Source of the DNA: an uncultured Candidatus Melainabacteria bacterium
GTDB lineage: Bacteria > Cyanobacteriota > Vampirovibrionia > Gastranaerophilales > Gastranaerophilaceae
DNA length: 39,091 nt
Direction of reading: 5' to 3'
Assembly (NCBI GenBank): GCA_949915775.1
Contig: CATLEG010000007.1
Coordinates: forward strand, 1 to 39,091
Shown here: piece after piece, positions 9,109-25,370 of the stretch
How the letters are laid out: every line of letters starts with the position of its first letter
How positions within the stretch are numbered: the stretch's first letter is position 1
Program-made: the position numbers and the translations under genes
The notes under the pieces: generated by a model
Database searches by the model: none
Told to the model about the DNA's origin: nothing
What the model saw: only the letters and a program-made list of their open reading frames with translations

Positions 9109-9864
9109 ATGAGAAAATTCGGATTTACTTTAGCTGAAATATTGATAACTCTGGGAATAATAGGTGTAGTTGCAGCATTAACACTGCCTAGTTTAATAAC
9201 AAAACATCAAAAAAAAGTTGCAGCAACTCAACTTAAAGAAACATACTCAATTGTATATCAAGCCTTAGAAAGAGCAAAAGTTGAACATGGGGATTTTTCG
9301 ACTTGGGAGATGTACTATGGTCAGACATTAGGAAGTGATTATAAACAATACCTAAAAACAGTAGTTGATAAATATTTTATACCATACGTAAATACTAAAC
9401 AAAACATTGGATTTATATCATTAAAAAATCTAGGTTATGATAATATATACACTCTAGATGGTAAACCCTCCAGTTCTCGCTTAACAGAAACTTCTTATTA
9501 TGTTGTTCCTTTAAGTAACGGTTCTATTTTACGTTTTATTTTTGCTTCAGGTTGTCCTAGCGATGAATATATTACTGATGAAAACGGTAATAATATAGCC
9601 TGTAAAGGAGATGTAACAGCAGGTGATATTTTTGTATATATAGATATTAATGGTAGCAAAAAACCAAATACTGACGCTAAAGATATATTTGTAATGCGCT
9701 ATAATACTAATGGATTACAGTTTTGGGGATGTGAATTAAAAACACCTAACAGACGCCAGGAAATTTTAAACACACAATGTAAAAAAGGGGCTCATCGTAC
9801 AGGATACTGCGGATGTGTAATAATGCTTGACGGATGGGAAATTAAAGATGACTATCCTTGGTAA
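9109..9864 (+). CDS. Type IV prepilin-like protein (normal short leader)
   Basis: 252 residues beginning MRKFGFTLAEILITLGIIG. This is a class III signal peptide: Gly before Phe+1, Glu at +5, then a hydrophobic helix that anchors the protein until a prepilin peptidase cuts and methylates it. The rest has the usual long helix (AATQLKETYSIVYQALERAK) and a Cys-containing C-terminal head with DINGSKKPN and DIFVMRYNTNG, shared with the other prepilins here. AAGGAGGGG nine bases upstream fixes the start; upstream in-frame codons lack support. It is a pilin or pseudopilin; which machine it serves is not shown. Confidence 0.85.
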   Translation: MRKFGFTLAEILITLGIIGVVAALTLPSLITKHQKKVAATQLKETYSIVYQALERAKVEHGDFSTWEMYYGQTLGSDYKQYLKTVVDKYFIPYVNTKQNIGFISLKNLGYDNIYTLDGKPSSSRLTETSYYVVPLSNGSILRFIFASGCPSDEYITDENGNNIACKGDVTAGDIFVYIDINGSKKPNTDAKDIFVMRYNTNGLQFWGCELKTPNRRQEILNTQCKKGAHRTGYCGCVIMLDGWEIKDDYPW

Positions 9865-13078: not shown

Positions 13079-14137
13079 TTATTTCATGTTAATGAAATCG
13101 TGCCAATAATCCATACCATCTTTTTTGGGGTGTTTGTTTAAAAGTGCATAACCAGAACAAGTCACTTGAGCATGAATAGTATCAGAGACATTACAATAGT
13201 TTTTTTGTGGAGAAAAAATTTTATACTGTAATTCTCCGCCAATATAATCATTGCCAGAGTGAGGCTGTCCATAAGGTATAACAGACCCATCAACAGTAAA
13301 TACAAATGTAAATATGTCAACTCCACATAAATTAGGTCCTTTTTTACCATTTATATCAACACAAATATAAGGTCCATTAAAATTAGAATTATAAGGAGTA
13401 GAAATAGCAAACAATCTACCTTTTGTATCAACAAAATATCCGCCATCATTACATAGTGGAAAAGTTGTTGTTCTAGGTTTACCGCCTAAAAAACCTATAA
13501 GATAAGGTACAGTAGTATTAACACTAAGATTAATTTTTAAAACCTTAAATTCTTTTGAAATAGCAGATAAAAGTTGACGAGAATTATGTTCATTTGCATA
13601 ATCATGGATTGACATATCATTATGAATTTGAAACATTTTCGCAGTATTACCCAAATCACTGTATGTCTGTTTAAGTTGATTTTTTAAGACTTCAGTTTTA
13701 TAGTTATTAATTAATACCGGCAAAGTCAACGCCGCCACAATACCTATAATACCGAGGGTGATTAAAACCTCCGCTAAGGTAAACGCAGCACATTTTTCCC
13801 TCGCCCCTTGCGGGAGAGCGGATTTGACTTTGTTCCCTCTCCTAGGGAGAGGGTTAGGGAGAGGGTTTTTATCAGTATCTAAGACGTTAAGACGATAGGT
13901 CGATAAGTTCTTATCGTGTGCTACGCACGTAGCCCTGCCGGTAGATGTTGGTACAACTTTTATAGATTTTGCTGTAGGTTTCGCACTCGAAACACTTTTC
14001 CCTCGCCCCTTGAGGGAGAGGGCTAGGGTGAGGGGTAAATTGAGATTCTTCGCTCCGCTCAGAATGACTGAATGAGATACTGAATCAAGTTCAGTATGAC
14101 GTGTGTGTTTCATTAAATTTTCAATTATCTGTTTCAT
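13079..14137 (-). CDS. Prepilin-like protein with a 118-residue repeat-encoded leader
   Basis: The conserved core AAFTLAEVLITLGIIG begins only at residue 119 from ATG 14137, which has a good Shine-Dalgarno (AGGAAAG, seven bases). The leader is translated repeat DNA: HTELDSVSHSVILSGAKNL, NLPLTLALSLKGRGKS, GRATCVAHDKNLSTYRLN and NPLPNPLPRRGN, all in one open frame. Other prepilins need only 5-25 leader residues. Position -1 is Ala rather than Gly. The mature part of 234 residues has the pilin head features PFSLGxx-type Cys residues, DINGKKGPNLCGVDIFTFVF and a C-terminal Cys region. It may be processed inefficiently or used as a surface protein (inference). Confidence 0.75.
   Translation of the reverse strand: MKQIIENLMKHTRHTELDSVSHSVILSGAKNLNLPLTLALSLKGRGKSVSSAKPTAKSIKVVPTSTGRATCVAHDKNLSTYRLNVLDTDKNPLPNPLPRRGNKVKSALPQGAREKCAAFTLAEVLITLGIIGIVAALTLPVLINNYKTEVLKNQLKQTYSDLGNTAKMFQIHNDMSIHDYANEHNSRQLLSAISKEFKVLKINLSVNTTVPYLIGFLGGKPRTTTFPLCNDGGYFVDTKGRLFAISTPYNSNFNGPYICVDINGKKGPNLCGVDIFTFVFTVDGSVIPYGQPHSGNDYIGGELQYKIFSPQKNYCNVSDTIHAQVTCSGYALLNKHPKKDGMDYWHDFINMK
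13795..14100. repeat. Repeat mosaic inside the prepilin leader, copy A
   Basis: On the minus strand it reads, in order: a GTCATACTGAAC unit, GTCATTCTGAGC...GAAGAATCTC, CCCTCACCCTAGCCCTCTCCC, CATCTACCGGCAGGGCTACG, CGATAAGAACTTATCGACC and a second CCCTCTCCC block. The same order occurs at about 24060-24610, also in front of a prepilin core. Confidence 0.8.
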
Positions 14138-14339
14138 AATTTCTTTCCTTTCTTTTATTACATTATATTTATAATTACATGTAGTACCCCTCACCTGAAA
14201 TTCTAACTTTCGCATAATAGCTCAAGTTGAATTTCTTCCCTCTCCCGCAAGGGGCGAGGGGATTTGGCATTGTCCCCTCTCCAGGGGGGAGGGAGAGGGA
14301 GGGGGTTTTATTTTGATTACTTAACCTATAAATTAATGG

Positions 14340-14405
14340 ATTGCCGCGTCGCTTCGCTCCTCGCAATGACGTTACCTGAGATTCTTCGCTACGCTCAGAA
14401 TGACG
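14340..14405. repeat. Two adjacent palindromic repeat types
   Basis: TTGCCGCGTCGCTTCGCTCC followed by TCGCAATGACG, then GAGATTCTTCGCTACGCTC and AGAATGACG. Together with GC-rich CCCTCTCC blocks (14235-14305) they fill the 14216-14460 stretch. Confidence 0.75.
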
Positions 14406-14496
14406 GAAATTGGTAGACCCTTGGCCTACGCCGCTAACTTCTTCCAACGCATTATAAACTTCACTAATACCTAGGTGGAAGGTGTCTTCGACACTG

Positions 14497-14505
14497 CCCC
14501 CCCCC
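14497..14505. repeat. C9/G9 homopolymer tract
   Basis: Nine C on the plus strand, G9 in the minus-strand reading frame, between codons for NPV and the downstream SVEDTF frame. Long G/C runs are rare in such AT-rich DNA. Confidence 0.9.
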
Positions 14506-14577
14506 GACGGGATTTTTTACCAACAATCCAAACTTTTTCAACTCTTTTAGCTCACTCGAAAATCTTTTCATACATTT

Positions 14578-14606
14578 AGTTTAACATTTTAAGCAGTATT
14601 TTTCAA
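14578..14606 (-). promoter_or_regulatory. Promoter of the G-tract reading frame
   Basis: On the minus strand TTGAAA (14606-14601), 17-base spacer, TAAACT (14583-14578), then six bases to ATG 14571. The stretch 14572-14710 otherwise holds no gene. Confidence 0.5.
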
Positions 14607-23907: not shown

Positions 23908-23955
23908 ATGTTTAACAAAACTTCACATATCGCCCCCCCCCCATCGGCCGTTTAG
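23908..23955 (+). other. Strong start and short frame broken at a C10 tract
   Basis: GGAGG eight bases before ATG 23908 is the best ribosome site of the locus. The frame MFNKTSHIAPPPPSAV stops at 23953. The C10 run (23933-23942) lies inside it; with eleven or eight C the frame would instead run on into the prepilin core at 24621, giving a 238-residue leader. Confidence 0.6.
23933..23942. repeat. C10/G10 homopolymer tract
   Basis: Ten C in a row between an excellent start codon and the prepilin frame. On the minus strand the same spot reads ILAKRPMGGG, resembling LLVKNPVGGG at the G9 tract at 14497-14505. Confidence 0.9.
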
Positions 23956-23963
23956 CAAGGATT

Positions 23964-25370
23964 TTGGACTGGTTTAAATGTAAAGACTTCGTCATCCTGA
24001 GCAAAGCGAAGGATCTCAAACCCACCCCTACCCCTCCCTTACAAAAGGAGGGAACAAAAGAATTACGTCATGCTGAATTTATTTCAGCATCTCAATTCGT
24101 CATTCTGAGATGCCAAAGGCACTCTCCCATCAGGTGTTGGTATAATTTTAAATCGTCATTTCGAGTAGCGAAGAATCTCAATTTACCCCTCACCCTAACC
24201 CTGTCTTGGATTTGCTCCACGCTCACAGAGTTTCGCCAAAGTTGCTACGCAACAAAAGGCTCAATCTGTTCGCTATCCGGACTCGTTTTACTCCGTCCGT
24301 CCGCAAATTCGCTCTCCCTCAAGGGGCGAGGGGAAAGTGTTTTGTGTGCGATACCTACATCAAAATCTACAAAATCTTCACCAACATCTACCGGCAGGAC
24401 TACGTGCGTAAAACATATACCTGCACCTTTTAAGTCTTCACCAACATTTACCGGCAGGGCTACGTGCGTAGCACACGATAAGAACTTATCGACCTATCGT
24501 CTTAACGCCTTAGAGACTGATAAAAACCTTACCCATACCCTCTCCCGAATTTGTAAGTTCGCATTTAGCTCACTAACAAATTCTACCCTCTCACAAAGAG
24601 AGAGGGTAGAATGCCCAGCATTTACACTCGCAGAAACTCTAATCACCCTCGGTATAATCGGCGTTGTGGCGGCGTTGACGATTGCCCCGTTAGTTCAAAA
24701 ATACAGAATTAAACAGCTAGAAGTCGCTTTTAAACACTCTAGCTCTATGATTGAACAAGCTTTGCTTAAAACAGCTAATGAATTTGGTTATGGAAGTATT
24801 AAAGATTTAACAAAAATTTGCGGTTATCCTCATTTATTAGATAACAAAAATAATATAGATAATGAACATCCTAATACTATTTATTATAATAATTGTTTAA
24901 ACGAATACCAAACAAAAATCATTCCTGAAATGTACCAAGATTTTATTTCAAATTTTCATGTTATCAAAACTTATACATTTGAAGAGTGTATGAAACCTGA
25001 AAATTTTAGAAATAAATATACTTATACATACTATGGAAACAGACTTAGTGTTGTATGTGCGCTGCAGACTAATGATGGTTTTAATATATTAGAAAATGGA
25101 ATATCTATGACTCGTCGTTTCTATTTTTTATTCCATGGTTGGTATGATGGATTCACATTTGTTTTTGATACAAACGGACCCAACAAAGGGCCTAATAGAT
25201 TTGGTTATGATATTTTTATATACAATACAGGAAATTGGGGTGAAAGAAAATGTACCGCTAAAAATGTGGATACTTATGGACATAATAGTTATGCCTGTTA
25301 TGATTATGCATTGCAAGATAAAAATCCGGATGATGATACTAAAGGTTATTGGGAAAGTTTGAAATTATAA
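23964..25370 (+). CDS. Prepilin-like protein with repeat-encoded leader, frame probably set by the C10 tract
   Basis: As sequenced the longest frame starts at TTG 23964, which has no ribosome site; the likely true start, ATG 23908, is out of frame by one base. The prepilin core AFTLAETLITLGIIG begins at residue 220 of this frame (24621), again with Ala at -1. The leader translates repeat DNA: FVILSKAKDL, RHAEFISASQFVIL, NLPLTLTLS, GRATCVAHDKNLSTYRLN, the same blocks in the same order as in the 13079-14137 gene. The mature part has about 249 residues with DTNGPNKGPNRFGYDIFIYN and several Cys. It is either a switched-off gene, a decaying one, or initiates further in. Confidence 0.6.
   Translation: MDWFKCKDFVILSKAKDLKPTPTPPLQKEGTKELRHAEFISASQFVILRCQRHSPIRCWYNFKSSFRVAKNLNLPLTLTLSWICSTLTEFRQSCYATKGSICSLSGLVLLRPSANSLSLKGRGESVLCAIPTSKSTKSSPTSTGRTTCVKHIPAPFKSSPTFTGRATCVAHDKNLSTYRLNALETDKNLTHTLSRICKFAFSSLTNSTLSQRERVECPAFTLAETLITLGIIGVVAALTIAPLVQKYRIKQLEVAFKHSSSMIEQALLKTANEFGYGSIKDLTKICGYPHLLDNKNNIDNEHPNTIYYNNCLNEYQTKIIPEMYQDFISNFHVIKTYTFEECMKPENFRNKYTYTYYGNRLSVVCALQTNDGFNILENGISMTRRFYFLFHGWYDGFTFVFDTNGPNKGPNRFGYDIFIYNTGNWGERKCTAKNVDTYGHNSYACYDYALQDKNPDDDTKGYWESLKL
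24203..24318. repeat. tRNA-linked repeat blocks inside the prepilin leader
   Basis: GTCTTGGATTTGC, CTCCACGCTCACAGAGTTTC, CTCAATCTGTTCGCTATCCG and CCGTCCGCAAAT match the element beside tRNA-Leu (21059-21245). The insertion splits the CCCTAACCCT...CCCTCAAGGG block that is continuous in copy A. Confidence 0.65.

Follow-up and report, generated by a model that had tools for sequence, protein, structure and literature searches.

How can a prepilin gene carry, in front of its conserved core, 118 codons of repeat DNA that are all held in one open frame? The question is raised by a gene on the minus strand of the window, the whole stretch of 39,091 nucleotides analysed here, which comes from an uncultured Candidatus Melainabacteria bacterium of the Gastranaerophilales. 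Published lengths of prepilin leaders range from 6 to 26 (PMC4471445) or from 6 to 51 residues (PMC6916266), and the leader of type IV prepilins ends in Gly or Ala (PMC10191384). An earlier note on this DNA had described a repeat-derived leader of 118 residues, read in a single open frame from a good ribosome site, and had placed it beyond the known lengths of class III leaders. Both statements hold. From ATG 14137, which is preceded by an AAGGA motif, 118 codons (354 nt) run free of stops to FTLAEVLITLGIIG, the first base of which is position 13783, and the leader is composed of repeat families that have further copies nearby in the region. A BLAST comparison of this leader with the genome it belongs to returned 102 pieces, mostly upstream of other prepilins. 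At the base composition of the leaders one stop is expected per approximately 18 codons, and the probability that 118 codons are open by chance in a single gene is p ~0.001.

The encoded protein exceeds the cut-offs of PF07963 (N_methyl; 22.8 bits versus 21.2, Pfam) and TIGR02532 (18.3 bits versus 16.3, NCBIfam). It has the N-methylation/cleavage motif of type IV prepilins, including FTLAE with Glu5, followed by a hydrophobic stretch, and the residue before the predicted cut is Ala, the permitted alternative to Gly. With 118 aa its leader lies outside the short range of 6–51 aa, but leader length is a descriptive trait, and an unusual length makes the gene less typical and not less of a prepilin. 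In-frame ATG, GTG or TTG codons are absent from the last 109 codons of the leader. A start just before the core, the alternative that the earlier note had raised against its own claim, is therefore excluded, the nearest in-frame start codon being 110 codons away. Upstream of 14137 the pilin frame stays open as far as ATG 14215, and 14137 is the better supported of these two starts. A structure prediction of the whole 352-aa precursor without an alignment was unusable (mean pLDDT 34), and no known structured RNA reached its family cut-off in the leader repeats.

Table. Positions of the prepilin genes of the window and of the elements associated with them.
Feature	Position	Strand	Evidence
Prepilin gene; 352-aa precursor composed of a 118-aa leader and a 234-aa mature pilin	13079..14137	-	PF07963 and TIGR02532 above cut-off
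Translated leader of repeat modules; predicted cut Ala118/Phe119	13784..14137	-	
Ribosome site AAGGA, 8 nt from ATG 14137	14145..14149	-	sequence
Contingency-type ORF, MKRFSSELKELKKFGLLVKNPV and G tract; 131–132 codons at G8/G11, stop at 14175	14175..14571	-	
G9 tract (C9 on the plus strand)	14497..14505	-	
Promoter-like TTGAAA-17-TAAACT just before ATG 14571	14578..14606	-	consensus match only
Second long-leader prepilin; GGAGG, ATG 23908 (MFNKTSHI), C10 tract, 238-aa leader, core at 24621	23908..25370	+	
C10 tract of the 23908–25370 gene	23933..23942	+	
Third prepilin, ordinary short leader MRKFG	9109..9864	+	

The earlier note had regarded the locus as one gene with one insert, and this part of it has to be abandoned: the long leader is no single-gene property but is found genome-wide across the prepilin family, as a block spread among diverged pilin genes. 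The genome (2.04 Mb in 143 contigs, 98% complete) contains about 77 prepilin cores that are followed in frame by 60 or more codons. In 50 of these 77 the leader has at least 60 residues and is built from shared modules, the longest reaching 298 residues; for this count, leaders cut by a contig end were taken at their visible length (22 of the 77 run off contig ends in this draft assembly). Ordinary leaders, MKKFG and MKKA among them, are found in a minority of the prepilins. The predicted cut follows Gly in 43 cases and Ala in 34, and the median of the highest ectodomain identity shared with a paralogue is 37%; since the paralogues share ancestry, such family counts are not independent observations. 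A plain ATG preceded by a Shine-Dalgarno (SD) sequence is the start of 38 prepilins, and 15, with leaders of up to 298 residues, have a homopolymeric tract in the pilin frame. Leader frames that are all broken, the other outcome that the earlier note would have counted against its claim, are not what we see, only one of the 77 being without a start codon, a tract-linked start or a contig end. The three prepilins of the window represent three states, namely a short leader, a long leader without an in-frame tract, and a leader of 238 residues that carries a C10 switch. Long leaders also occur in related genomes, where many are made of other modules, and in a sample of eight prepilins from other families of the order the leaders measure 5–17 residues. 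The named relatives are Gastranaerophilales MAGs from animal guts.

Many contigs of this genome break off within the leader or the N terminus of a prepilin (e.g. L139, L145 and L148; 22 prepilin loci), and the fragmentation of the assembly is probably caused by the shared leader blocks. Such contig ends in a draft genome might instead suggest that the leaders themselves are misjoined repeats. We consider such an artefact extremely unlikely, because the reported leader lies in mid-contig, long open leaders of other modules occur in other genomes, and misjoins would not hold the frame open in 52 genes. Two repeat ORFs that resemble leaders, L140 (C5:38600-41000) with 226 codons and L144 (C41:12600-15500) with 251, have no pilin core and are possibly relics of lost prepilin genes. 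Despite the 77 prepilins, two different searches of all contigs found no prepilin peptidase (PF01478) in this draft genome, which reflects either an assembly gap or a loss; the peptidase is over its cut-off in 22 of 24 members of the genus, and a PilC-type protein is present in the genome itself.

Fifty-two leaders of this genome have at least 50 residues, and their pilin frame contains no stop in 6,662 codons. The other two frames contain 442 and 490 stops, and neither of them is open in any of the 52 leaders. The zero is partly a matter of construction, as each leader is delimited by its own open frame, but the lengths far exceed the ~18 codons expected from base composition, and over the 52 long leaders a chance open frame is excluded. 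The dN/dS of aligned repeat copies is 0.77 when they are read in the pilin frame, compared to 0.85 and 0.50 when they are read in the other two. The gaps between aligned copies are mostly not multiples of three (298 of 1,477 are), which means that the frame is kept overall and not gap by gap. Intergenic repeat copies, some of which are open over more than 200 codons, are too few and too mixed to serve as a control for openness. These data suggest that selection acts on the openness of the frame while peptide changes are nearly neutral. Of the earlier proposal of 'selection or recent insertion', the first half thus stands for the frame, with a near-neutral peptide, and the second is better described as spread between genes. 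A conserved functional leader peptide is not supported, because dN/dS is near 1 and copies align in different frames. A function of the leader in its own right, for example in the control of export or assembly or in the binding of a partner, would fit with the frequency of long leaders in this genome and their recurrence with other modules in several relatives; we regard it as very unlikely, since in addition to the near-neutral and frame-shifted copies, functional-looking neighbours have leaders of only 4–6 residues. Averaged over the long leaders, the net charge is +9.8 per 100 residues, and a membrane-like segment is absent from all 50 of them, as would be fitting for a leader in the cytoplasm; 48 of 50 lack an ATG in their last 40 codons.

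The relationship between leaders and mature parts was examined in 191 pairs of genes (36 genes), chosen because the last 120 bases of their leaders are at least 85% alike. In these pairs the mean identity is 93.8% over the last 120 leader bases; at the start of the mature part it is 85.6% for the first 60 bases and 62% for the next 60, and beyond +180 the ectodomains show about 55%, which is the level of shuffled sequences. As near-identical leaders are joined to ectodomains that are alike only at random level, we conclude that leader blocks have moved between old pilin genes. The conserved core would be the natural edge of the moved blocks, with gene conversion or another form of recombination presumably as the route. 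The leaders also hold copies of the core, FTLAEVFSPCRKVKLNFG, as well as what appear to be translated former UTRs, ribosome sites and starts, for example NVIKERKEI-MKQIIKNLM (L048) and KGINERIKI-MKK (L002), and the simplest reading is that leaders may grow by in-frame fusion of upstream cassettes. At positions 15974-15927 (minus strand), within the ORF 16304-14994 of a tRNA methylthiotransferase-like gene, the peptide CHTELVSGSEQDKC, which resembles the HAELVSAS leader module, is encoded in frame, and such repeats therefore also enter conserved proteins.

It could be argued that nothing more than passive, selfish repeats is involved, tolerated in frame because the leader is cleaved, with no exchange of cassettes and no link to switching. 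Intergenic copies, the in-frame copy in the tRNA-modification gene and the nearly neutral leader peptide agree with this, and Rickettsia palindromic elements (RPEs) provide a precedent (PMC10969869). We nevertheless find this explanation unlikely, since the identity profile edged at the core points to an exchange of whole 5' blocks, the leaders contain translated former UTRs, starts and core copies, and 15 genes of this genome read tract and leader as one frame.

Upstream of the reported gene lies a contingency-type ORF with a G9 tract, preceded by a promoter-like sequence (Table). At G8 or G11 this ORF ends 37 nt before ATG 14137. It joins the pilin frame at no run length, and the reported gene is thus not phase-variable in the sense that a run between start and core sets its frame. 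Because the tract cassette (14571-14497) is out of the pilin frame at every length, the reported gene most likely starts independently at 14137, and a translational coupling of the MKRFSSELKELKKFGLLVKNPV ORF with the pilin ORF is possible. The same arrangement recurs in the family: among eight genes of this genome with an upstream tract and a separate pilin start, which share sequence and are not independent, seven have an upstream ORF ending 18–95 nt before the pilin start. In L002, unlike in the reported gene, tract and pilin are in one frame. That the upstream ORF never joins the pilin frame would also be expected of a decayed or silent copy whose switch cassette has gone out of frame and whose downstream ATG is unused. 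We doubt this, because the frame of 352 codons is intact and has a ribosome site, the fresh SD-ATG layout is seen again in several paralogues, and plain ATGs with an SD serve 38 prepilins of the genome.

A connection of the leader region with a poly-G/C ON/OFF switch, present in paralogues and congeners, is absent from the earlier note. The clearest case in the window is the 23908–25370 gene, in which a run between start and core does set the frame: it is OFF at C10 and open to 487 aa at C11. In two congeners the association is evident across the genome. In G007, 74 of 77 genomic G/C runs of at least 9 are located 25–135 nt before a prepilin core, where 1.65 would be expected, and in G018, 35 of 37 such runs are just upstream of prepilin cores (0.42 expected). 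In all 54 tract genes examined from these two genomes, an ORF starting with ATG enters the run, and there is a run length, most often 8 or 11, at which it continues into the core with no intervening stop; 49 of the 54 have a ribosome-site match of at least 5 nt. Since one in three lengths always restores the phase, what is informative here is that no stops intervene, that ribosome sites are present and that the tracts are concentrated just before the cores. The run length is exactly 10 in 46 of these 54 genes, and only 4 are ON as assembled; over 98 tract genes 6 are ON, compared to an expected third (p=2e-10), and flanks that would give ON at length 10 mostly carry another length. The geometry of tract, start and core can be read directly from the assemblies, and from it we infer slippage and switching in cells. 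Across 24 members of the genus the number of tracts follows that of prepilins (rho 0.73). The exception is G021, in which about 131 prepilin matches are accompanied by just 4 G/C tracts of at least 9, a species that may have lost the switch or may use another. Other families of the order have 0–6 tracts. In the one open-access library searched, no paper connects phase variation with the Gastranaerophilales or phase-variable loci with Melainabacteria.

The uniformity of the runs raises the alternative of slippage during transcription, or of frameshifting by the ribosome, programmed to occur at a run length fixed at 10, which would not be heritable phase variation; apart from the 46 of 54 runs of exactly 10, it could account for the fact that 78 of the 98 genes need +1. 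This is distinctly unlikely in our opinion, as run lengths from 7 to 15 occur, and outside the commonest class of flank and length the phase is mixed, with 6 genes ON, 10 needing +1 and 14 needing −1.

On balance we think it probable that this genome encodes a large phase-variable prepilin repertoire, the cleaved leaders of which tolerate, accumulate and exchange repeats. Translation of the reported gene would start at 14137 and proceed through the 118 repeat-derived residues, and the positively charged leader would stay in the cytoplasm until the prepilin peptidase cuts between Ala and Phe. Because everything before the cut would be discarded, the sequence of the leader would be nearly free, but its frame would not, as a shift abolishes the pilin. 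With a free sequence and a fixed frame, the leader region would gather repeats, former 5' UTRs, former starts and partial copies of the core. Leader blocks would be exchanged between pilin genes, probably by recombination edged at the conserved core, to give modular 5' cassettes on diverse ectodomains. In this genus the leader region would also be a point of control, where slippage in a poly-G/C run between start and core decides whether the pilin is in frame; the assembled consensus shows most genes OFF. More tentatively, at slightly less than even odds, members of the genus may possess repertoires of some 20–130 prepilins, mostly OFF and switched singly by slippage, in which recombination within the cleaved leaders carries promoter, switch and start cassettes from one ectodomain to another that is unrelated; this would amount to a pilus diversification system built on the part of the protein that is discarded. 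If so, a major lineage of gut relatives of the Cyanobacteria has tied switching almost wholly to one protein family, and to our knowledge its pilin sets would be among the largest phase-variable ones. The prepilin leader, regarded as a short tag, would be a zone that is free to evolve and able to grow past 200 residues while the frame survives, and this would help to explain why these genomes fragment at pilin genes and why many pilins are missed or given wrong starts in standard gene calling.

Each of these mechanisms has precedents, and as far as we have checked it is their combination, the scale and the leader length that are new. The Campylobacter fetus sap and Mycoplasma vlhA genes are surface-antigen families in which a shared 5' block is found on variable downstream domains. 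The prepilins described here likewise have conserved 5' DNA common to diverse downstream coding parts, but most of them keep their own start, and neither a single expression site nor a rearrangement has been observed. RPEs resemble the leader repeats in that repeat DNA is translated in frame within protein genes. They are set apart by their description as single elements of ~150 bp with a conserved encoded peptide, inserted in unrelated genes, whereas the leader repeats form mosaics of many modules from several repeat families, are largely restricted to the leaders of one gene family, and encode a near-neutral peptide. Compared to class III prepilins (IPR012902 / PF07963), the proteins share the hydrophilic, positively charged leader ending in Gly or Ala, the F-T-L-A-E motif and the hydrophobic helix, and differ in leader length, which is 118 residues in the reported gene, at least 60 in 50 of 77 prepilins of the genome and up to 298, against the published 6–26 or 6–51. 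The poly-G phasome of Campylobacter (PMC6321876) is similar in that G/C runs of about 8–12 lie in the 5' coding region and one length in three restores the frame. Unlike in Campylobacter, nearly all tracts here serve one family (74 of 77 in G007), the assembled states are strongly biased to OFF, and the host is an uncultured gut relative of the Cyanobacteria.
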